Origin: Bdellovibrionales bacterium | GTDB lineage: Bacteria; Bdellovibrionota; Bdellovibrionia; Bdellovibrionales; UBA1609 | Length of the DNA: 60,906 nt | Direction of reading: 5' to 3' | NCBI GenBank assembly: GCA_019637855.1 | Contig: JAHBUX010000018.1 | Span: 1 to 60,906, forward strand | Shown: positions 28,354 to 39,752 of the stretch, one piece after another | How positions within the stretch are numbered: position 1 is the stretch's first letter | Layout of the letters: each line of letters opens with the position of its first letter | Made by a program: the position numbers and the translations under genes | The notes under the pieces: generated by a model | What the model saw: only the letters and a program-made list of their open reading frames with translations | Told to the model about the DNA's origin: nothing | Database searches by the model: none

Positions 28354-28502
28354 AACGGCCACCTCGCGTGAAATCGTTACCGCCTTGTAACAAAAAACGG
28401 CTCAGAGACCCCATTCTCCCGCCGTCATCCTAGAATTTCGCGTACTTAGACCACGTTTCCATGGCATACCTTTCGCTCCCTTTTCTTGCGGGAGATCCCT
28501 AT

Positions 28503-31190
28503 ATGATCAAATTGAACTACCTACGAATTCTGGTGCTTTTAGGCCTAACCCTCGGGCTTATGAGTTTTAACGCTAAGGCGGACTCCAAAAAGCCGCCCAC
28601 CCAGACAGACACGCGCGGTATCGACTCGGGCTCCCCCCGCAGCGGTGCCCCGCTGGGCACAGACGATCTCGTCACTACAGAACCGGATTTCGAAAACCTC
28701 AACGACATTATCCGCGATCGTGTCAAACAGCGTGGCGGCCAGTACATCCTGGGGCGCGAAACCGAAGTGAACTTGCTGGAAGATAAGCTCGCCATCGCCG
28801 ACAGCCATACGGTCGTCGTGCAAGGTGAAGCCGGCAGCGGTCGTACCGGACTGGTCGAAGAGTTCGTACGCCAGAACATGATCAAAAATCCCGAAGACAA
28901 AGTGGTGCGTCTGAATCTGCGCAACTTGGATTTGAAATCGGAAGCCAACGCCACTCAATCGCTCAAGAGAATCCTGATCCAGCTCGAACAAGAGAACATC
29001 GAACGCAAAGGCCAAAGCCGCGTCATCCTGGTGATCGACAATCTCTCAGCCCTACTCAAGGGCGAGCTGCTGCAGCCGATCTCAGCACTACGCGAATTTA
29101 TCGCGCGTGAAGGTCGCCTGTTCACTATCATCGAGGGCGATATGCTCACGGTGAAAGAGCAGATCACAAAAGGCAAGTACGCCAAGCTGCAAAACTCGGT
29201 CGAAGTTATCGAAGTGAAGCCACCAACCTATGACGCTGTGGTGGCTCGCTTGATGAGCGATAAGGCTCAGCTACAACGCTCAAATATCAGCATCTCGCAG
29301 TTGGCCGTAGAAAACGCCGCTCGTATCGCGGTTCGCTACCGTCAGAACCGGGCGCTGAAATATGCCTACCAGATTTTGGAAGGCAGCGTGCGCCTGCTCG
29401 AATCCGACATGCGCGCCGGTTCTTTGAGTCAGGATCGTTTGAAAGGCGAGGTGGCTCAGCTACAACGCATACGTGACAGCGTGGCCGCAGACCTGACTGC
29501 CGAGACCGACGCCAGCGAAAAAGCGGTTTTGCAAAAACGTTTAGCCCAAATCGATCGTGATTTAAAGAGCAAGCAAGGCGATATCGGTCGTCTGACTGTT
29601 CCCACCGATAGCCGCGCCCAGTTGGCGCAGCTCGAAGCTGAAAAGATCGCTCTCGAACTCGAACTTGAGAAGGTGCGCGAGGAAGTGCGCGGTAAAAAGA
29701 GCTGGATTCAAAATCTCTCTGGCATGGGTGGCGGCAATAGTCCTGCCGAGCAGGCCGCAGTCCGCATCGGCCAAGAGATTGAACGCAAAACACTAATGAT
29801 GAATGAGCTCGAATCCCTTATTCTCAATTCGGAAGAAACACAAGGCCGTCCGGCCACACGCGTAGGCCCCAAACAAGTGGTGGCCATCGCTTCCAAGTGG
29901 CTTAACATTCCGGCCACTCGGCTATCCGCTAACTTCGATGAGGGCGTGCAACGCATTCAAGATATTAAAAAGCAAATCTTTGGTCAGGACCATGTGATTG
30001 ATGCTTTGGAAAGCCGTCTCCTGGTCTCGGCAACCCATCTGCAAGATGGCCCTGAGATTCTCCCGCATGAAGCCGGCGATGTCTTACGCGGCATCAGGAC
30101 CGATCGCGACCGTCCCCTGGGCTCATTCTTTTTTGCGGGCTCCACAGGAGTCGGTAAAACGGAGACCGCTCTGCAACTGTCCAACACCTTAGGCTACGAA
30201 TTGGTTCGTTTGGATATGACTGAGTTTCAGCAAGACCACATGGTTTCACGTTTGATCGGCTCGCCTCCCGGATATGTCGGCTCCACAGAGCCAGGTGAAC
30301 TGATCCGTAAAATCAAAGAGAATCCGGAAGCCGTCCTGCTATTCGACGAGATCGAAAAGGCGCATCCGCGCATCTTAGATGCGCTTATCCCGATTTTAGA
30401 TGCGGGCCGATTGAGCGCCGCCAACACCGGTGAAACGATAGATTTCCGCAAAACGATTATTGTGATTACGTCAAACTTAGCGCAACAGATCGGTAGCTGG
30501 AACCGCGCTCAAAGCATCGAGTTCCTCAAGACCACTGGTAAAATGAGCGATCAACAGATCGAACAGCTCACTAAATATGACCTTATTAAACTTCAACGCG
30601 AGTCTTATCGCGTATGGGTCAAGGATCATACGTTGATGAATGGTCAACCATTGCGGCCGGAGCTGGTCGAGCGTATCGACGATCTGATCATGTTCAACAA
30701 ACTCACCGAGGAAACCGCGGTTCGCATCGCTCAAAAGACTGTTTCTAACTTGGTTAACCGTATGAAAAACCTCTATCAGGTTTCGGTGAAGTTTGCTCCC
30801 GATGCGATCGTCGAGCTTATGGCTGGTTTTAATTCCGAAGGTGGAGGTCGCTCGATGCGCCGGGCCTTCGATGAACTTTTCCGGGCACCGATTGCACGCC
30901 TTATGGCTGAACGAAAACTCACCAGCGGCGACATGTTACTCGTGAACGTCAATCCCCAACGCGAACTCGAGTTGATGAAAACAACTCCGGCAATGGTCGC
31001 GGCCGCCGAGAAAGCCACTCAATCCAGCACGCCTGAGTTGACCGAGATGAAAGACAAGCTTTTGTCGCGCGCTAAAAACAGAGGCGCTGTGCGCGAGGCC
31101 CGCAGTGCCACTGCGGAACTCGTGCGCCGTACCTTCAACAAAGAATGGTTCGTTAGTGAGCGTGCGTTTGCACGACTGAAGGGAAAATAG
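28503..31190 (+). CDS. ClpB/HSP100-like double AAA+ ATPase with a Sec signal peptide
   Basis: An 895-residue protein. The start at 28503 (MIKLNYLRILV) has GGGAG upstream; a start 14 codons earlier lacks one. Residues 1-26 form a typical Sec signal ending NAKA before Asp27. The first AAA+ domain (about 80-300) is degenerate: Walker A is GEAGSGRT (108-115, Lys replaced by Arg), Walker B ends VIDN (Glu replaced) and the usual KYRG pore loop is missing. A coiled-coil middle region follows (about 310-445). The second domain is intact: Walker A GSTGVGKT (546-553), pore loop GYVG (590-593), Walker B LLFDE (612-616), sensor-1 N658, arginine finger in LRPELVERID (R718/R724) and sensor-2 R783. No ClpP-binding IGL/IGF loop was noticed. 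It heads a five-gene operon. Confidence 0.9.
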   Translation: MIKLNYLRILVLLGLTLGLMSFNAKADSKKPPTQTDTRGIDSGSPRSGAPLGTDDLVTTEPDFENLNDIIRDRVKQRGGQYILGRETEVNLLEDKLAIADSHTVVVQGEAGSGRTGLVEEFVRQNMIKNPEDKVVRLNLRNLDLKSEANATQSLKRILIQLEQENIERKGQSRVILVIDNLSALLKGELLQPISALREFIAREGRLFTIIEGDMLTVKEQITKGKYAKLQNSVEVIEVKPPTYDAVVARLMSDKAQLQRSNISISQLAVENAARIAVRYRQNRALKYAYQILEGSVRLLESDMRAGSLSQDRLKGEVAQLQRIRDSVAADLTAETDASEKAVLQKRLAQIDRDLKSKQGDIGRLTVPTDSRAQLAQLEAEKIALELELEKVREEVRGKKSWIQNLSGMGGGNSPAEQAAVRIGQEIERKTLMMNELESLILNSEETQGRPATRVGPKQVVAIASKWLNIPATRLSANFDEGVQRIQDIKKQIFGQDHVIDALESRLLVSATHLQDGPEILPHEAGDVLRGIRTDRDRPLGSFFFAGSTGVGKTETALQLSNTLGYELVRLDMTEFQQDHMVSRLIGSPPGYVGSTEPGELIRKIKENPEAVLLFDEIEKAHPRILDALIPILDAGRLSAANTGETIDFRKTIIVITSNLAQQIGSWNRAQSIEFLKTTGKMSDQQIEQLTKYDLIKLQRESYRVWVKDHTLMNGQPLRPELVERIDDLIMFNKLTEETAVRIAQKTVSNLVNRMKNLYQVSVKFAPDAIVELMAGFNSEGGGRSMRRAFDELFRAPIARLMAERKLTSGDMLLVNVNPQRELELMKTTPAMVAAAEKATQSSTPELTEMKDKLLSRAKNRGAVREARSATAELVRRTFNKEWFVSERAFARLKGK

Positions 31191-31196
31191 TTTTAG

Positions 31197-33002
31197 ATGC
31201 TAAGCCTGGGACGTGCGCTTTTAATCTATGCACTCTCTGCTGCGGTCGCGGTGCCGCCGGCCTTTGCTGCCCCAGCTGCCGCCGGTCGTTTGCCCGAAGT
31301 GCCTGTGAATCCAAGCTCGCTACGCGCAGCTTTAAAAAGCACCTTTAGTCCCGAAGCTGCCCTGGCTCGTCTCACTCCCGGTATCCCTGCTTCCGAACGC
31401 GCCGCTCATCTCAAGGCCCGCAGTCAAGCCACACTCAAAGGTGGCGCCCGCATCGCCAACGAGATCTTAGGCGTGCAAGCCATGATTATTCTGGCTGCAG
31501 TCTTAAGCTTTCAAGCCAGCCAAGAGCATCGCGAGTTGGTCAAACTCAGCAACAATCAAATGCCCGAAGATACGACTGCCGATGGGGCCTGCGCCGCCGG
31601 CAGCCACTCGACACTCAATGTCCTTTTGTGCAGCGGCGAGTTTTGGACCGGCGCCATCGGTGGCGCCGCTTTTCTGGGCGCCAACTCGGCGACTCAGGCC
31701 GTGATGAGAAAGTTTTTGCAAAGTGCAGGATCACGCCTCGCTTTCTTTAAATATCTAAGCGCAATGTCTTCAGGCGCCTTTTTAATGGTTGGCGCACAGG
31801 GTGCCTCCTTCTTATGGACCGAAGCCGTGAAAGCCTTGCCGGATGCCGAGTCTATTCGCAAAGCCGATGGTGTTGCCGGTCGTGCGATGATCGCCCTGAC
31901 CAGTGGCCAACGCGCTCAATTCAATGCCAGTGAAGATGGAAGACTCTTTGCCGCCATCAACGAGAACATGTGGAATATTCTGGTTGTCGATGCGTCCTTA
32001 CGCTCACAGTGGATGTACAACACATGGCGCTTTGGCCTAGCTCGCGGTGAGTTTATCAGCGCTATGGCCGCGCTTATGGCAGCGGCTTCCGCCGGTGAAA
32101 TCGTCACAGGCGTTGCGGCGTTAGGTTGGTCGGCACCGGTGCTCGGCTTTATAGTGTCGATGGGACTTGGCTTTGGTGCGATGAACCTCCTGTTCTCCGC
32201 CGACGCCCCCGCCCAAATGACTAAGGCCATGCAGGGTATGCGCTCATTCACGGCGTCAGGACAAATGCGACGTTGGCGGGCCGAGATTCTCACCCTGTCT
32301 AAGTCGGGGTTCACTAGCCAGCGTTACCCGCAAGCCGGTCAAGACGGATATATCCAAGTTTACGAGCGTTATCTCTCCGATCGCATCGGCTACCTCGAGT
32401 CGGCACGCGAAGACTTTGCCAACGTGGCTATAGAGAAGTACTACGAACTCTTGAATGTTCAACAAGCTCTCGAAAGCAAGATCCAAATCGCTGAGACCAC
32501 CGTGCGCTCCGCCGCCTTACAAAAAAACCTGTTCGTTGAGGTCGACAATAAGATCATGAGCTTTGAACAGGCTAAGGCCAAACTCTGCCCGAATGAAAAC
32601 GCCTGCGCGCAGAACGTGCACACACAGCTCGAGACGCTAAAAGATCTAAAGCCTCTGGTGCGCGAATCCAAAGCGCGTTTGAGCAACGCCGTACAAACTC
32701 TGGCCGCCGAGTACGCGTACGACCGCCAAAGCATTCAGAACCTATGGCAAGACAGCACTTTGATATTTCCATTCCCCATCGCACAGCGCTTGTCGGAATT
32801 CCAAAATCGCAGTCAGGCCATTGGTGAATCTTTGACCTTCATTTTGGGTGGCAGCGATCAAGACGTGGCCCGCAGTCAAGGACTAGAGGTCAGCGAGGCC
32901 GAGCTTGCCTCTTTCCGTCAGGATCTGGCCGAATTCTACACTCAGAGTTTCAAAGAAGCGCCGCTGTTTAACGAGCTCAAGAAAGTCGCAGGTCCGCAAT
33001 GA
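31197..33002 (+). CDS. Unrecognised exported multi-helix membrane protein, AAA+ operon gene 2
   Basis: A 601-residue protein with a Sec-like signal (1-24, ending PPAFA). Hydrophobic segments lie at about 90-107, 149-166, 187-207, 285-305 and 308-334. A long, mostly helical C-terminal part follows (about 340-601), rich in Glu/Lys/Gln and probably coiled coil. Four cysteines (two at about 132 and 145, and a CPNENAC pair near 462-467) could form disulphides in the periplasm. No family was recognised. The gene starts 6 bp after the AAA+ stop, and its own stop overlaps the next ATG by 4 bp. It is most likely a membrane partner of the exported AAA+ protein. Confidence 0.8.
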   Translation: MLSLGRALLIYALSAAVAVPPAFAAPAAAGRLPEVPVNPSSLRAALKSTFSPEAALARLTPGIPASERAAHLKARSQATLKGGARIANEILGVQAMIILAAVLSFQASQEHRELVKLSNNQMPEDTTADGACAAGSHSTLNVLLCSGEFWTGAIGGAAFLGANSATQAVMRKFLQSAGSRLAFFKYLSAMSSGAFLMVGAQGASFLWTEAVKALPDAESIRKADGVAGRAMIALTSGQRAQFNASEDGRLFAAINENMWNILVVDASLRSQWMYNTWRFGLARGEFISAMAALMAAASAGEIVTGVAALGWSAPVLGFIVSMGLGFGAMNLLFSADAPAQMTKAMQGMRSFTASGQMRRWRAEILTLSKSGFTSQRYPQAGQDGYIQVYERYLSDRIGYLESAREDFANVAIEKYYELLNVQQALESKIQIAETTVRSAALQKNLFVEVDNKIMSFEQAKAKLCPNENACAQNVHTQLETLKDLKPLVRESKARLSNAVQTLAAEYAYDRQSIQNLWQDSTLIFPFPIAQRLSEFQNRSQAIGESLTFILGGSDQDVARSQGLEVSEAELASFRQDLAEFYTQSFKEAPLFNELKKVAGPQ

Positions 33003-36000
33003 CACTGAAGCGACTTTTTAAATCCTCAACCTCACTCACGCTAAGTCTGAGCCTGGCACTGACTTCGATGGCCGGCATGGGACCGGCGTACTCTGTGCGC
33101 GTTGAAGCGCAAGAGAGTGACTACTCGGTCGGCTTCAAGCTGGCAGAGGAGCTCACCCAGCTGCTTGATCGCGCGGCTTATCCCGATATTCCCCGCCGCG
33201 GAAAAACCGGCGTGCCCACCTCGGCTGAACTCGCAGGAGTCTTGGCGCGCACCTTGTCCCTAAAGCAATCTCTGCAGAACGGCTACCTGAACCGGGTGTT
33301 GGAACCTCTATCTATTGACGCCGAAGAGCAGCTTCAACAAACGGCTCGCATCGTTAAAGACATGGACAAGTACTTCGAGGTGGTCTCGCGCCTCGAGGGT
33401 TTGAAGATCGTACTCGGTCTTCAGGTTGAGCCGGAAACTTGGGAAAGCCTGTACAATCTGAAGTTTCCGCTCAAAGATCTCTCACAGGTTCATTTCTTAG
33501 AGGCCATCAGTGCGTTTGCGCAAAATGCCGTCCTGCTGCCCGTGGAAGGCTATGACAAAGAAGAGCTACAAAAGCTCATCGCGCAAGGCTCATTCTTCGT
33601 CACACATATCGAAGCACTGAACGGAGCTTGGCAACTCACCTTCCGCTTGAATCCGAGTTTCGCCCAGCGCAGTGAACAACTGTCGTTTCTTACCCGTCCC
33701 AGCCTGCGCTCTGGACTTCAATATGCCGGCCACTTTGCTATGCATCGCCTGTATGACTCGCTGGTGCTGACCCGCAGCTTACGCGGTCAATCGCCGACGT
33801 CTTTACCGGCACCGCCGGCTGCGGCTCAAGCTCGCTACTTAAGTCTGAAAGTGGCGCGCTTTCAAGCGGTACGTGACTATCAAACCGCTCTCGATCAAGA
33901 AGTGAAACCGCAGGTCTATAAAGCGCTGCTCGATGCCGCTGAAACTTCAGGCGTGCGCGCCCTGACCAACGAATTCTACGCCAACGTCGGCAAACTTACC
34001 GGCCAAGAGCTCGGTTCATTCACGGACAAAGAGCTGGCGATGATGCAAAAAGGCGAATTGATCGCCCTCAGCCGCGCCCTTTCAGCCCTATTGAATCTCA
34101 GTGACATCAACGATTGGGAGGGCTTGCCTCGCCACCTGTTGCGTGAAGGCGAACGTCTGGCCCTACGCCATATTTTCTTAGCTTCCGAAGTGACACGCTT
34201 AAGTCTTAGCACCGAAAACTTGGCGGCACTCGAGGACTTGATCGATCAGGCGGCGGATACATTTGCCACCAACGTTCTGGCCAAAGCGAAACTGGATTTT
34301 AAAGCTCTTTCGGCTCAGTCATTTCAAAGTATGATGAGCAAGAAGCGCAGCGAGTTTCAGAAAAATCTCGAAGCCGCTTCTGTGTTGCTACGTGATTTCA
34401 AAAAACAGCCCCTACGCATCGACTACATCTATGGCGCACAGGCGCCTTATATACAGGATCTGCAGCCGAGCGAATCCACGCGCAAGCTCGCCGAACAACT
34501 CAGCCAGGTACCTGAGTACAATCTGGCCTACTTGAACTACAAAGCCGCACTGGCCTCAATACTGAGCGAATTTCAACTCAATGGTGGCGCGGTGCCGGCC
34601 CTCGACATCGACAGCTTAAGCAAACAGCGCAGCCGGTTGAAATGGAATCCTGCCGCCCTCAAAGGCAAAGTGCCGGACAAATATCTTTCCGCCGTCACTC
34701 CTAAGAGCGGTTGGTTCAGCGGTCTCATCGGTAAGCCCGTCAGCCCGCGCGACAAAGACCTCTCAGACCTGCTTGAGATCGGCCGGCTGCTGAAGTTCAA
34801 CGTATTCGAAAAACTTGAGCGCAAAGACGCAACCGTCGAAAACATGAAGCTCGACGACACCTTGCTCGGTCCTGTCTTGGGCAGCGAACACAAGGCCTAT
34901 CTCGAAGAGATGAAGAAGGACCTGCTGAACAACTCCCCCTTGCTCGGTGGTATTGTCGGCAAACAGGGAACAGCGCCCCGCCATCAGGGAAATATGCTCT
35001 GGCAAGCTTTGGCCGACGACCAACTCGCGGCCACTAGCAAATATGATCTGGTCGAAAAGCAGCTGGCCTACGTGGAAAAGCAAATTCACGTGACCGAACG
35101 CGAAGTGGCCGATCAGCTGGCTAAGATCGACGCCATTGAAGGCGAAAACGTCAGCGGCCTCAGCCACGATATGTTGGTGGTCTCGACTCGAGCCTATCAG
35201 ATCAGCAAAAGCCTTGAGCCCTTTGCCAGCTTCGAAAGCTTCTACAGCAAAATGCGCCAAAGCTTGCTGGAGCCCGGCTTCTGGCGCAGCGAATGGCAGG
35301 ATTTCTCGACCTGGGCGAACAATTCGGCCACCTATGTGATTTTGATTATGGTGGCTCAATTGATCGGCTCACGCGTTGGTCCGGTCGGTAAAGCCGCCGA
35401 TCCCATCGCCTCTCTGCTGACACCGTTTTGCGGTCCGAACTTCCGTTGCCTCGGCCCGGTGTTTATGGGTCTGATCGGCATCGGTCTCTCCGATCAGCTG
35501 TACCGCGGCTTTTATAGCGAAGCGAAAAATCTGGACTCTTTACGCAAATATTTCGAGACCGGCTCGGGCGCTCCGGGCGTCGCTCTTTACACCGACGTGA
35601 AGCAACAGACCGACGTGATGATGCAACCTCGTTATGAGGCCATGATCACCGTGGTGATGGTGGCGGCAATCATGGGTGGTTTTGCGGTCGGCCGCAAACT
35701 GCTCAATCGTTTTTCCGGCCCGGGCACATCTGCTGTCGAAATACTGAAGAAGGACATGCAGACTTTAGGTCTACCGCAGACGTCCTCATTGAGCCGCGAA
35801 GCCCTACAAGCTTCCGTGCGCGACTCTCTCAAGAGAGCCCGCCAGACCTCTGACCCAGTGGCACGCGCTCAGCTTGAGGCCTATATCAGCCAAGTCTATG
35901 CGCGCATGGAAAGCACTCTGCATAAAGAGGCCTTGTCGTGGAACGCCTTTGAACAACGCTACAGCCAAACTTTACGCCGCGTTGGCTTGAGTAAAGCCTC

Positions 36001-36427
36001 ATGGACTGACGCACAAGAGTTGACCCGTGCTCTCAATCAAGTGGAAGCCGCTTACAAGAACGGTCAGCTATTGCGTTCCGATTACCAAGAGCAAATGGCC
36101 GCCTTGATGAACGTCTATCAGCGTCTGGCGCCGGTGTGGCAGCAAATCGAAAAAGAGCCGTTGCTGGCCGCCTACTACACACGTTCCTGGCAGTTGGCCA
36201 GCGGCTCATCTGATATCTCGCTGACCGCCAATATCGCCTCTTACAATCTGCGCGTAACACGTCCGTTTTTGAAAGCTATGGACGAGTTTTATGGCGCCGG
36301 CACCAGCTCAAGCCGTATGGACACGATCATCGAGAATATCGCACAAGAGTTAAAGTCCGCGCCGCAGTTGCGCGCCAAGCGCATCGAACAGTTGAAACGT
36401 TATTTAGAAGAAGGAGCCCGTAAATGA
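32999..36427 (+). CDS. Unrecognised large exported membrane protein, AAA+ operon gene 3
   Basis: A 1142-residue protein. The N-terminus (KRLFK then a Ser/Leu-rich core) is a signal peptide, with cleavage near PAYS or VEA (about 32-37). A helical domain of about 740 residues follows. Then come hydrophobic segments at about 776-795, 817-832 and 879-897, with a cysteine pair between them (FCGPNFRCLG), and a helical C-terminal domain of about 240 residues. No motif for catalysis was seen; the regular heptad-like Leu/Ala/Glu pattern suggests a scaffold. ATGA overlaps join it to both neighbouring genes. It is the largest component of the operon. Confidence 0.8.
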   Translation: MTLKRLFKSSTSLTLSLSLALTSMAGMGPAYSVRVEAQESDYSVGFKLAEELTQLLDRAAYPDIPRRGKTGVPTSAELAGVLARTLSLKQSLQNGYLNRVLEPLSIDAEEQLQQTARIVKDMDKYFEVVSRLEGLKIVLGLQVEPETWESLYNLKFPLKDLSQVHFLEAISAFAQNAVLLPVEGYDKEELQKLIAQGSFFVTHIEALNGAWQLTFRLNPSFAQRSEQLSFLTRPSLRSGLQYAGHFAMHRLYDSLVLTRSLRGQSPTSLPAPPAAAQARYLSLKVARFQAVRDYQTALDQEVKPQVYKALLDAAETSGVRALTNEFYANVGKLTGQELGSFTDKELAMMQKGELIALSRALSALLNLSDINDWEGLPRHLLREGERLALRHIFLASEVTRLSLSTENLAALEDLIDQAADTFATNVLAKAKLDFKALSAQSFQSMMSKKRSEFQKNLEAASVLLRDFKKQPLRIDYIYGAQAPYIQDLQPSESTRKLAEQLSQVPEYNLAYLNYKAALASILSEFQLNGGAVPALDIDSLSKQRSRLKWNPAALKGKVPDKYLSAVTPKSGWFSGLIGKPVSPRDKDLSDLLEIGRLLKFNVFEKLERKDATVENMKLDDTLLGPVLGSEHKAYLEEMKKDLLNNSPLLGGIVGKQGTAPRHQGNMLWQALADDQLAATSKYDLVEKQLAYVEKQIHVTEREVADQLAKIDAIEGENVSGLSHDMLVVSTRAYQISKSLEPFASFESFYSKMRQSLLEPGFWRSEWQDFSTWANNSATYVILIMVAQLIGSRVGPVGKAADPIASLLTPFCGPNFRCLGPVFMGLIGIGLSDQLYRGFYSEAKNLDSLRKYFETGSGAPGVALYTDVKQQTDVMMQPRYEAMITVVMVAAIMGGFAVGRKLLNRFSGPGTSAVEILKKDMQTLGLPQTSSLSREALQASVRDSLKRARQTSDPVARAQLEAYISQVYARMESTLHKEALSWNAFEQRYSQTLRRVGLSKASWTDAQELTRALNQVEAAYKNGQLLRSDYQEQMAALMNVYQRLAPVWQQIEKEPLLAAYYTRSWQLASGSSDISLTANIASYNLRVTRPFLKAMDEFYGAGTSSSRMDTIIENIAQELKSAPQLRAKRIEQLKRYLEEGARK

Positions 36428-37482
36428 TCAAACGTGCCCTAGCTCTATTTTTAGCTTTCAGCGTTTCGCTTCCCGCCTTTGCCGGCGTTACCCGCAGCAA
36501 CGCCGACATGATGGCCTTGATCGATGATTACATTAAAGAGGTCGCCAGCACTCCGGCCAATGCGGATCAGACTTATATGGATATGCAGGCCGCCTTCTTA
36601 GCCGAAGCTGTAGGTTTGCAGGTGCGCACACTTGAGCCCGAAGACTTCAATCTCTTTATGTTGGCGGTGATGAGCCGCTATATCAACAAGCCAGAAGAGC
36701 GTGAAGCTCTGTTCAAGTTTATCGAGGGCACACGCCAATGGATCGCAGCCGACTTGGCCAACACGGCGCAACTGGAAAAAGGCGCGCTTCACTACATGAA
36801 CCCAGCCAACTACAGCTGGTACACCTGGGTGGTGATCGGCGCCGGTGTTGTCATCGGCGGGCGCGTTCTACACGGGCCGTTACGGACCACACGTTTCGTG
36901 CAGGGCTTGGATAAAATGCAAATGGCCGCCGCCAAATGGCGCGCGCCCTATCGTATCGCATTTCGCTCAGCCACTCACCCGATCACTCTTGCTACCGCCA
37001 CCGGCGCCGGCCTTGGTTTGCTGGAATACCAGCTCGAGAAAAATAAAACCCATCGTTTAGACCCGATGATTCTGACCAATGCCGTACAAACCGAACTGGC
37101 TTGCTATGCTTCCTACCAAGGCTTGGGTTTAGAAGAGCGTTTCGAATCCATCCGTGATGACGAAGAGAAACTCAAAGCCGGCTTCGCCGGTCTAAACGCC
37201 GATATCGATAAGCTGATGGGCGAAACCCAAGTCTTACTCAAACAGTACGCGCGTTTAGACAATCTGTATTTGAATGAGCCGGGCCTGCAGGCCGCTCGAG
37301 CCAAGCTCCCTCAAGCCAGCGATTTTCAAGATTTGCGCCGTTTACTCAACGCCAAAGACGCAGCGGCGACCGGTCCCTGTGCCGCCGTTTCACTAACTCA
37401 TCTGGTGATTGCTCTAGAGAGAATGAAGACTGACCTGAAGACCTACCACGATGTCTACGTTCCAACGGCGGCCCAACCATGA
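36424..37482 (+). CDS. Unrecognised exported membrane protein, AAA+ operon gene 4
   Basis: A 352-residue protein with a clear signal peptide (1-20, LPAFA before Gly). It repeats the plan of its neighbours: an N-terminal helical part, a short hydrophobic segment at about 132-149 (WYTWVVIGAGVVIGG), a basic loop (RTTRFVQGLDKMQMAAAKWR), a second segment at about 186-201 and a helical C-terminal part with a cysteine pair (ELACYAS and TGPCAAV). The basic loop suggests that the hairpin dips to the cytoplasm, leaving both ends in the periplasm. No family recognised. It overlaps both neighbours by 4 bp. Confidence 0.78.
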   Translation: MIKRALALFLAFSVSLPAFAGVTRSNADMMALIDDYIKEVASTPANADQTYMDMQAAFLAEAVGLQVRTLEPEDFNLFMLAVMSRYINKPEEREALFKFIEGTRQWIAADLANTAQLEKGALHYMNPANYSWYTWVVIGAGVVIGGRVLHGPLRTTRFVQGLDKMQMAAAKWRAPYRIAFRSATHPITLATATGAGLGLLEYQLEKNKTHRLDPMILTNAVQTELACYASYQGLGLEERFESIRDDEEKLKAGFAGLNADIDKLMGETQVLLKQYARLDNLYLNEPGLQAARAKLPQASDFQDLRRLLNAKDAAATGPCAAVSLTHLVIALERMKTDLKTYHDVYVPTAAQP

Positions 37483-38654
37483 AGAGCTTCGCCCTGATCC
37501 TTTTGTTGGTGACCACCCAGCTCGGAGCAACGGCGCCCACGGCAGAGGACTTCGTGCGCGGCTTCGCGGGAATGTCGGCCCTACAACGCGCCGGCCGCGC
37601 GCTACAGACCTGTAAAGCCACTCTAGGAAAAGCGCCCGCGCAATACCGCGAAGACATTCAGGCCATGGGGCGCTTATGGTCGGCCCACAGTGAGGCCGCC
37701 GACTATTTGATCTCGACGTGCAACACTTTGTGGACAGCACATGAACTGGACCCGCAAAAGTCGACGCAGATCGGGCGGGCACAAAAGATCGCCAATTTAG
37801 ATTTCCTCGAAGCCGGCAAATCCGCTCTGCCGGTCAAGATCCGTCAATACATGGAGGCACCAGGTAAAGGTCTGACTCGCCCCGCTCCGTATGAAATTCT
37901 AAACGGCATGGCCTCAAGCGCACGCGAACTTGATCTGACTCTGCAACAAAATGTCGGCCTGGCCGTAGCCTCACTGGTTGCCCTCGGCGGCAGCGGCGTG
38001 GTCACTGCCTTAGAAGCCACCGGAGCCTTAGCTCGCACCTCCGCCACTTGGGGTTTGCGAGCCAGCGCCACCGGTTTTGAGCCGGCTATGGTTGTGACCG
38101 TGCTGTCGGCTGGGATTGCAGTTAGCGCCAACTACGCCGTTTGGTGGAAACGCGAATACGATGCTTGGTGGTATGTAACGCAGATTTTAGAAAAGTTAGA
38201 GAAGCGCACGCCTGATCAACCCCTCCTGCCATTGCTGGAGGAGTACTACGGTATTGCCGAGCGTCTCGGCTACTTCTACACCTTCAGTCTTTTGCAAGCC
38301 GATGGCGGCAAGGACGTTTTGCCCGAGGGCAATGCGCGCTGCCTGACAAAGCTCGACAAGTTTTTTAACGCCGGCAACATCAATTGGGCCGTCAAATTTA
38401 AACGCCAAACCGTGTGTGGCGACGCCGCCGCCGTATGGATGGCCGCCGCTCAATACCTAGAGCAGCTGCTACCTCAGGAACCAATGGCAGGGCTTGTGGC
38501 CGATCGCTTAAAAGCACGTGCGACTCGCACCTACTGGGCCTACAAAGAGACCGCCGCGTTTAAGGCCACGCAACCGGTCTGCCACCCAGCCGTGGGGGTA
38601 GTGCAAACCAGTTGGGAATGCAGGGACCCAAAGACTGGGGCGCTCGTCCTATAA
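37479..38654 (+). CDS. Unrecognised exported membrane protein, AAA+ operon gene 5
   Basis: A 391-residue protein with a signal peptide (about 1-19, LGATA). Two hydrophobic segments, about 158-178 (VGLAVASLVALGGSGVVTAL) and about 202-222 (AMVVTVLSAGIAVSANYAVWW), flank a short loop with arginines. N- and C-terminal parts are helical. Six or so cysteines are spread through the soluble parts (LQTCKAT, ISTCNTL, ARCLTK, TVCGDA, PVCHPA, WECRDP), fitting a disulphide-bonded periplasmic domain. It is the last gene of the operon. A 294 bp gap follows before the next gene. Confidence 0.78.
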   Translation: MKSFALILLLVTTQLGATAPTAEDFVRGFAGMSALQRAGRALQTCKATLGKAPAQYREDIQAMGRLWSAHSEAADYLISTCNTLWTAHELDPQKSTQIGRAQKIANLDFLEAGKSALPVKIRQYMEAPGKGLTRPAPYEILNGMASSARELDLTLQQNVGLAVASLVALGGSGVVTALEATGALARTSATWGLRASATGFEPAMVVTVLSAGIAVSANYAVWWKREYDAWWYVTQILEKLEKRTPDQPLLPLLEEYYGIAERLGYFYTFSLLQADGGKDVLPEGNARCLTKLDKFFNAGNINWAVKFKRQTVCGDAAAVWMAAAQYLEQLLPQEPMAGLVADRLKARATRTYWAYKETAAFKATQPVCHPAVGVVQTSWECRDPKTGALVL

Positions 38655-38948: not shown

Positions 38949-39689
38949 ATGAAGTCAGTCGCAAAAGTAGCTGTTTGTGGAATTTTGGCTCTCGCCATCA
39001 ATGCAAACGCACAAGTCGGACAAGCCATCTCGCAAGACGCCTTGCAGATCATCAACAAAAACGCTGCTGCTCGCCAATACTTGGCTGAGAAATTGGGCGT
39101 TCGTGCTGGTAGCGCTTCGGAAGCTAACGTGGCTCTGAAGAAACTCGCTCCCGCGGATCAAGCGGCTGTTTTGAAAGCCATCACTGCCTACACTAAAAAC
39201 GCTGTCGACAGCTCTTCGGCTGCCGCTTCTGCTTCGAACACTGCTGCTGCCAAAGCTGCTTTTGCTTCGAACACCGGTTCTGTGATCGAGTCTGTAGTTA
39301 ACGCTCAGAATGCTAAGAAAAACGAAACCATCTCTTGCAGCCAAAAGCTGGACGCTAGCCGTCTTGCTGTTGCCGGTGGTCCCAGCGTCGCCACTATCGA
39401 AGCCGCTAACAAAGCCGGCGTCGTAGCTCGTGGCGGTTGCGCTGAAAATCCCGAAGAAATGTCGCAAGAAAACATCAAAGTTTTCGGTCTTCTCAGCGAG
39501 TGCGGTTTGAACAAAGGTTTGAATGTGAACTCGTCTGAAGCTGAGCGCGTTGAAGTTATGGGTGCTTGCTTGGCTACCATCAACAACATCTCGGTTGAAG
39601 AAGCTAAGACCCGCGTCGCTTCGATCAACAACAAGTGTGGCTGGTTCTCGGCGAAATACGCTCAGTCTGCTGCAGCCGCCGCTCGCTAG
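38949..39689 (+). CDS. Ala-rich secreted protein, probably abundant
   Basis: A 246-residue exported protein: signal 1-21 (INANA before Gln), a helical N-terminal half, an Ala/Ser-rich linker (about 91-112) and a C-terminal half with five cysteines (SCSQ, GGCAE, SECGL, GACLA, NKCGW). Codons are strongly biased (GCT, CGT, AAC, ATC favoured), unlike its neighbours, which suggests high expression. GGAAGGGA lies just before the ATG, and an intrinsic terminator follows. No family recognised. It lies 294 bp after the exported AAA+ operon and could be a client or a structural partner of it, but that link is only positional. Confidence 0.8.
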   Translation: MKSVAKVAVCGILALAINANAQVGQAISQDALQIINKNAAARQYLAEKLGVRAGSASEANVALKKLAPADQAAVLKAITAYTKNAVDSSSAAASASNTAAAKAAFASNTGSVIESVVNAQNAKKNETISCSQKLDASRLAVAGGPSVATIEAANKAGVVARGGCAENPEEMSQENIKVFGLLSECGLNKGLNVNSSEAERVEVMGACLATINNISVEEAKTRVASINNKCGWFSAKYAQSAAAAAR

Positions 39690-39718: not shown

Positions 39719-39752
39719 AAAATAAGGGAGCAAAAAGCTCCCTTATTTTTTT
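39719..39752. terminator. Bidirectional intrinsic terminator between convergent genes
   Basis: AATAAGGGAGC (39721-39731), a five-A loop and GCTCCCTTATT (39737-39747) form an 11 bp stem followed by a T run to 39752 on the plus strand. Read on the minus strand, the hairpin is followed by TTTTG. The TAA stop of the ROK gene lies inside the second arm, so the hairpin serves both genes. Confidence 0.9.

Follow-up and report, generated by a model that had tools for sequence, protein, structure and literature searches.

Gene organization of the locus

We analysed a 60,906-nucleotide stretch of DNA from a Bdellovibrionales bacterium (assembly GCA_019637855.1, contig JAHBUX010000018.1, positions 1 to 60,906 of the forward strand; hereafter the window) and describe here a block of five genes headed by an HSP100-like double AAA+ protein that is predicted to be exported. 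The five genes lie on the + strand at 28503-38654 and, as read from the open reading frames (ORFs), are joined by a gap of 6 base pairs (bp) and then by three 4-bp ATGA overlaps. A preliminary description of this DNA had an HSP100 double AAA+ protein with a Sec signal at the head of five genes so arranged, and the ORFs, the junctions, and the domain assignments all agree with it. Because a terminator-like hairpin stands 3′ of a further gene, encoding a 246-amino-acid (aa) protein, the transcription unit may include that gene as well. The features of the locus are as follows.

28503..31190, + strand: HSP100-like double AAA+ protein, predicted exported, 895 aa (mature form about 869 aa)
28503..28580, + strand: predicted Sec signal peptide MIKLNYLRILVLLGLTLGLMSFNAKA, predicted cleavage after aa 26
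28743..29130, + strand: AAA+ ring 1, degenerate, about aa 81-209 (Walker A GEAGSGRT, Walker B VIDN)
29300..29850, + strand: long helical/coiled region between the rings, middle-domain-like (approximate bounds)
30111..30940, + strand: AAA+ ring 2 with a complete motif set, small domain to about aa 812
31110..31187, + strand: C-terminal tail TAELVRRTFNKEWFVSERAFARLKGK of the AAA+ protein, conserved in the orthologue of a genus-mate
31197..33002, + strand: Partner 1, 601 aa, with signal peptide, hydrophobic segments, and 4 Cys
32999..36427, + strand: Partner 2, 1142 aa, predicted exported, hydrophobic near aa 779-797 and 880-898, 2 Cys
36424..37482, + strand: Partner 3, 352 aa, predicted exported, 2 Cys (C227, C319)
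37479..38654, + strand: Partner 4, 391 aa, predicted exported, hydrophobic pair at aa 159-177 and 203-221, 6 Cys
38949..39689, + strand: small predicted exported protein, 246 aa, fast-evolving, a possible member of the system
39719-39749: strong terminator-like hairpin, 13 pairs followed by a T run, directly after the 246-aa gene

A predicted signal peptide on the AAA+ protein

Signals were judged by a crude sequence test and by inspection by eye. The N-terminus of the AAA+ protein (MIKLNYLRILVLLGLTLGLMSFNAKA, followed by DS) has n-, h-, and c-regions and an AxA-like cleavage site, and reads as a textbook Sec signal. None of 22 cytosolic ClpBs and none of 1477 internal 60-mers pass the test, as against 70 of 2700 shuffled N-termini; six of the seven AAA+ proteins of the family (the window protein included) do pass, with AxA-like or similar sites. 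The passing homologues are those of genomes G002, G001, G014, G130, and G006, together with a protein of G038, from another family, and the signal of the G140 protein (MNKTTVSLFAILLSLCVARTTYA, followed by QS) scores weakly. Predicted signal peptides are thus a property of the exported AAA+ family and not the chance possession of one gene.

A Shine-Dalgarno-like GGGAG precedes the start at 28503 by 8 bases, and no such site is present at the upstream ATG at 28461 or at the ATG at 28560 inside the hydrophobic segment. Translation from beyond that segment, and homologues devoid of the signal, had been named in the preliminary description as findings that would speak against export. A downstream start was rejected, as there is no ribosome site there and the homologues keep the signal; signals persist even in divergent homologues (weakly so in G140). 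No second membrane segment was found ahead of the ATPase in the window protein, and since the N-terminus is basic and would stay inside, the usual orientation would place both rings outside.

One complete ATPase ring in an HSP100 framework

The double HSP100 architecture of the 895-aa protein is recognized by Pfam (AAA_2 at 5e-40, ClpB_D2-small at 3e-7), with ring 1 matched by generic AAA families. The ClpA, ClpB, and ClpV models of NCBIfam match at 1e-54 to 1e-62, far under their own cut-offs, and the score against the ClpB equivalog is 203.1 bits where 1232.1 are required; an ordinary ClpB is encoded elsewhere in the same genome. Mapping on the ClpB profile shows that ring 1 has lost both the Walker A lysine (GEAGSGRT) and the Walker B glutamate (VIDN), so that only ring 2 is a complete ATPase, with GSTGVGKT, the pore loop GSPPGYVG, FDEIEKAH, TSN, the arginine finger ERID, and the sensor-2 motif GGGR all intact. 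By its motifs the protein has what defines the HSP100 superfamily—two AAA+ modules, a C-terminal D2-small domain, and one catalytically complete ring with a pore loop—and, ring 1 being degenerate, does not have the two active nucleotide-binding sites of a ClpB. No Clp N domain was found in it, and the cysteine counts of these AAA+ proteins do not discriminate them from cytosolic ClpB.

An AlphaFold2 model of the mature protein, built from 24 sequences, has a mean pLDDT of 64.8, with ring 2 mostly at 80-93 and the first 90 residues low; the long helices between the rings are modelled at low to moderate confidence. Foldseek matches spanning both rings are to ClpC, ClpB, Hsp104, and the HSP101 of PTEX (6e10), and a sequence search returned the same ClpC, ClpB, Hsp104, and HSP101 set together with human CLPB/SKD3 (7ttr, 7us2, 7xbk).

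The partner proteins

The four proteins encoded downstream have no convincing match in Pfam or NCBIfam, in keeping with their earlier portrayal as members of no known family. The accompanying statement that all four carry signals and membrane segments needs some qualification: the 352-aa protein has only a weak internal membrane segment, and the signal of the 1142-aa protein receives a low score. Cysteine counts are even throughout (4, 2, 2, and 6 in the 601-, 1142-, 352-, and 391-aa proteins), and C227 and C319 of the 352-aa protein are invariant over four divergent sequences, a pattern that fits disulfides. Homologues of the 1142-aa family are present in G002, G013, G021, and G026, and of the 352-aa family in G002 and G021; in a focused hhalign set only the 1142-aa family was linked to G013. 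A homologue of the 601-aa protein adjoins the AAA+ gene in G014, as does a fragment of one in G002.

Homologues, ring usage, and the hypervariable slot

Those compared genomes whose organism has a name are metagenome-assembled genomes labelled Bdellovibrionales, Pseudobdellovibrionaceae, or similar. Homologues of the AAA+ protein were found in four genera of the same family as the window and are divergent, at 17-34% identity: 33-34% for G002 and 17% for G001 (both of the same genus), 20% for G014, 18-19% for G130, 18-20% for G006, and 18% for G140. Ring usage varies among them. The G001 protein is the reverse of its genus-mate in the window, ring 1 being complete with a YRG pore loop and ring 2 dead. 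G130 resembles the window protein, G006 and G140 have Walker A in both rings, and G014 keeps the ring-1 site and has lost the Walker B aspartate of ring 2. Every member retains nucleotide-site motifs in at least one ring, and which ring survives differs between species. The earlier picture of a double AAA+ motor holds for the two modules, but judging from the motifs usually only one ring per protein is catalytically complete. Retention of one site despite such divergence suggests that nucleotide use is under selection, which would maintain ATP-using machines that appear to be exported.

Most of the AAA+ homologues sit in the same hypervariable slot near ETF-QO and pdxH, framed by ETF-QO and HIT on one side and by the small exported protein, ROK, and pdxH on the other. 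Exported clusters occur at or near it in G001, G002, G006, G013, G014, G026, and G130, and a cluster of the G006 type is also present in G140. Between the window and G002 the AAA+ proteins share 33% identity and the partners 27-32%, as against 78, 64, 74, and 57% for the flanking ETF-QO, HIT, ROK, and pdxH, and across the relatives partner families at the slot turn over rapidly. AAA+ genes also occur with other partners, and the block is not rigid. What recurs among the relatives is the slot more than a fixed set of genes: the partners vary, and in two of the genomes (G013 and G026) the slot has no AAA+ gene. A tree of the ring-2 domain, with very long branches for the exported proteins and unsettled bootstrap support, does not separate a single origin from multiple ones.

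Other predicted exported ATP-dependent clusters in the lineage

A scan for ClpB_D2-small revealed a second cluster in the genome of the window itself (G000:C26, about 103.8-119.0 kb; L121:5762-13686 and L100:3683-10984). Its members, all with Sec-type signals, are an 835-aa PrkA-like AAA protein, an AAA protein of about 1780 aa, a 1053-aa SpoVR-DUF444 fusion, and a 1292-aa double AAA+ protein with an M41 peptidase. This second cluster, the homologue signals, and the recurring locus support the earlier idea of an AAA+ machine that is exported along with proteins dedicated to it, the gene block itself being loose.

Of 140 genomes of the order, 25, belonging to six families, encode a homologue of the AAA-M41 protein, and the majority of these homologues have recognizable signals. 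The 659-aa AAA+ protein encoded at G000:C23 (L098:508-2487) carries an M41-like HEAGH motif but lacks a signal peptide, and may be a cytosolic counterpart of the exported form. Long SpoVR-type proteins, several with signals, were found in 12 of 59 genomes; they differ from canonical SpoVR, which the majority of these genomes encode as well. In several families an exported pair or trio recurs, comprising a PrkA-like AAA protein of about 820 aa, a large AAA protein of 1760-2180 aa, and a long SpoVR-type protein of 1040-1190 aa; such sets were seen at L270, L272, L274, L277, L279, and others, with a canonical SpoVR elsewhere in the genome.

In G001:C4 (L128:4689-8663 and L128:1398-4595) an exported protein that combines three AAA+ modules with an M41 peptidase has two further exported proteins as neighbours, a circularly permuted ATP-grasp protein of 1065 aa and a weakly PrkA-like one of 859 aa. 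G038:C14 (L129:6196-8964), from another family of the order, encodes an exported 922-aa ClpB-like protein beside an exported AAA-M41 gene; its ring-1 pore loop KYRG is kept and its ring-1 Walker A is dead. By eye, the N-terminal part of this 922-aa protein is Clp N domain-like.

Relationship to known HSP100 systems

The window protein shares with ClpB and Hsp104 the two AAA+ rings, the GYVG pore loop of ring 2, the arginine finger, and sensor-2, has a helical region between the rings that may correspond to their coiled one, and differs in its predicted export, its dead ring 1, and its score below the ClpB equivalog cut-off. A closer functional likeness is with PTEX, in which HSP101 in the malaria parasite vacuole threads proteins via EXP2 and PTEX150 into the host cell (PMC7355975). 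Common to both would be a secreted ClpB-type threading ATPase that acts beyond the cytosol of the producer in company with proteins of the membrane and tether kind—its location in the window being a sequence-based prediction—and the PTEX structures 6e10 and 6e11 are among the structural and sequence matches of the window protein. The likeness is functional only, however, as no EXP2 pore or PTEX150 tether is recognized in the partners by Pfam or NCBIfam; moreover HSP101 has two active rings and belongs to another domain of life. Human CLPB/SKD3 likewise is an HSP100 ring-2 motor outside the matrix, in the mitochondrial intermembrane space (PMC9934407). It matches the window protein (7ttr, 7us2, 7xbk) but has a single AAA+ ring joined to ankyrin repeats, and is not encoded in an operon with exported partners.

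The preliminary description had taken Torsin as the closest concept, and here we depart from it. Torsin is related to HSP100, resides in a lumen, and has the membrane partners LAP1 and LULL1; it has one ring, and its activators supply the arginine finger. A Torsin-like single-ring model was rejected for the window protein, which has two modules and its own arginine finger ERID. The HSP101 of PTEX is the better model, given that the arginine finger, the sensor-2 motif, and the pore loop for threading are all present in the window protein as in ClpB. Openly licensed papers yielded no account of a bacterial HSP100 that is periplasmic or exported, and there 'periplasmic ATPase' leads mainly to work on type VII secretion; we regard the HSP100 variant as new and the kind of system as possibly new.

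A possible extracytoplasmic threading machine

The bacterial periplasm is held to be without ATP, and ATP-driven unfoldases are assigned to the cytosol; an exported ClpB-like motor is unexpected, as motors of this kind run on ATP and its supply is generally assumed to be confined to the cytoplasm. We propose tentatively, at somewhat less than an even chance, that the block encodes a PTEX-like, ATP-driven threading machine that faces another cell's ATP. The HSP100 subunit would cross the inner membrane by Sec and, as its homology suggests, assemble into a hexamer like that of ClpB, with ring 1 in a structural role and ring 2 hydrolysing ATP to pull polypeptide through the tyrosine pore loops. 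The exported 601-, 1142-, 352-, and 391-aa proteins may anchor the motor to a membrane and form an acceptor or conduit. The most plausible site would be a compartment reaching another cell's ATP (the prey periplasm or cytosol), from which the motor would thread proteins across a membrane as HSP101 does from the parasite vacuole; here we infer the compartment, the ATP source, and the substrate.

Several points weigh against this proposal. Export is predicted from sequence, and the proposal presumes both extracytoplasmic ATP in this lineage and a predatory lifestyle of these bacteria. A search of 59 genomes for a TLC-type ATP/ADP carrier, run without a positive control, gave no match. None of the four partners matches a pore family in Pfam or NCBIfam, the model of the 601-aa partner is too poor to be usable (AlphaFold2 pLDDT 42.5), and partners of the 1142-, 352-, and 391-aa types also occur at the slot without an AAA+ gene, such partner homologues being present in G013 and G026. 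Scans across the order and the phylum turned up no strong member beyond family f1; this absence is weak evidence because detection of divergent exported AAA+ proteins was bounded by the limited number of candidates scored per genome.

An HSP100 working in the cell's own periplasm, as a motor for envelope proteostasis or secretion that receives ATP by an unexplained route and involves no other cell, would accommodate the partners' signals and internal hydrophobic segments, which are compatible with the cell's own inner membrane, and the occurrence in the lineage of several more sets of exported ATP-dependent proteins could mean that ATP is a standing component of the periplasm. No periplasmic ATP supply is known, however, and the fast divergence of the slot looks more like the mark of a changing interaction partner than of housekeeping; we consider this reading unlikely. 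Less likely again is delivery of the AAA+ protein, perhaps with its neighbours, into prey as an effector that remodels prey proteins with the exported AAA-M41 protease. Prey cytosol contains ATP, the AAA-M41 protein is encoded in the same genome, and the locus is hypervariable, but partners of a membrane type point to an assembly fixed in place, no path through the outer membrane was identified, and predation is itself presumed. Taken across the three export readings, export of the HSP100 motor is highly probable on the strength of the predicted signals.

That the ATPase is cytosolic, through a downstream start or an N-terminal helix acting as an uncleaved reverse anchor, would suit its requirement for ATP and the fully ordinary HSP100 motor in ring 2. 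Yet the ribosome site fits the signal-bearing start only, n-, h-, and c-regions with AxA-like sites are kept in most of the divergent homologues, and the basic residues ahead of the helix argue against a reverse anchor, which together make this very improbable. We give slightly less credence still to an exported scaffold that works without ATP hydrolysis, its nucleotide sites being relics: one ring is clearly dead in most members, but every member, at identities of 17-34%, keeps nucleotide-site motifs in at least one ring, and genus-mates do not keep the same ring.

In its wider form our proposal, held with the same reserve and perhaps the less probable side of even, is that members of the Bdellovibrionales assemble sets of ATP-dependent machines outside the cytosol (HSP100, AAA-M41, PrkA-like AAA with SpoVR-DUF444, and ATP-grasp), with the window cluster an independently arisen bacterial counterpart of PTEX. 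If true, this would require either that some compartment outside the cytoplasm contains ATP or that the machines are delivered into other cells' cytosol, and the recurring exported HSP100 and the other exported sets make the choice between usable ATP outside the cytosol and action inside another cell directly testable. The window cluster may offer a bacterial parallel to the protein-export motor of malaria parasites.

Additional observations

An anti-phage role was considered and rejected, as PADLOC matches are to generic AAA+ only, with none for the four partners. A viral scan returned only HSP100 homologues, matched mainly over ring 2, which were added to deepen the alignment. Upstream of an exported AAA+ cluster in both G000 (L121:4913-5449) and G001 (L122:8692-9228) lies a 178-aa ORF that is tyrosine recombinase-like by eye.

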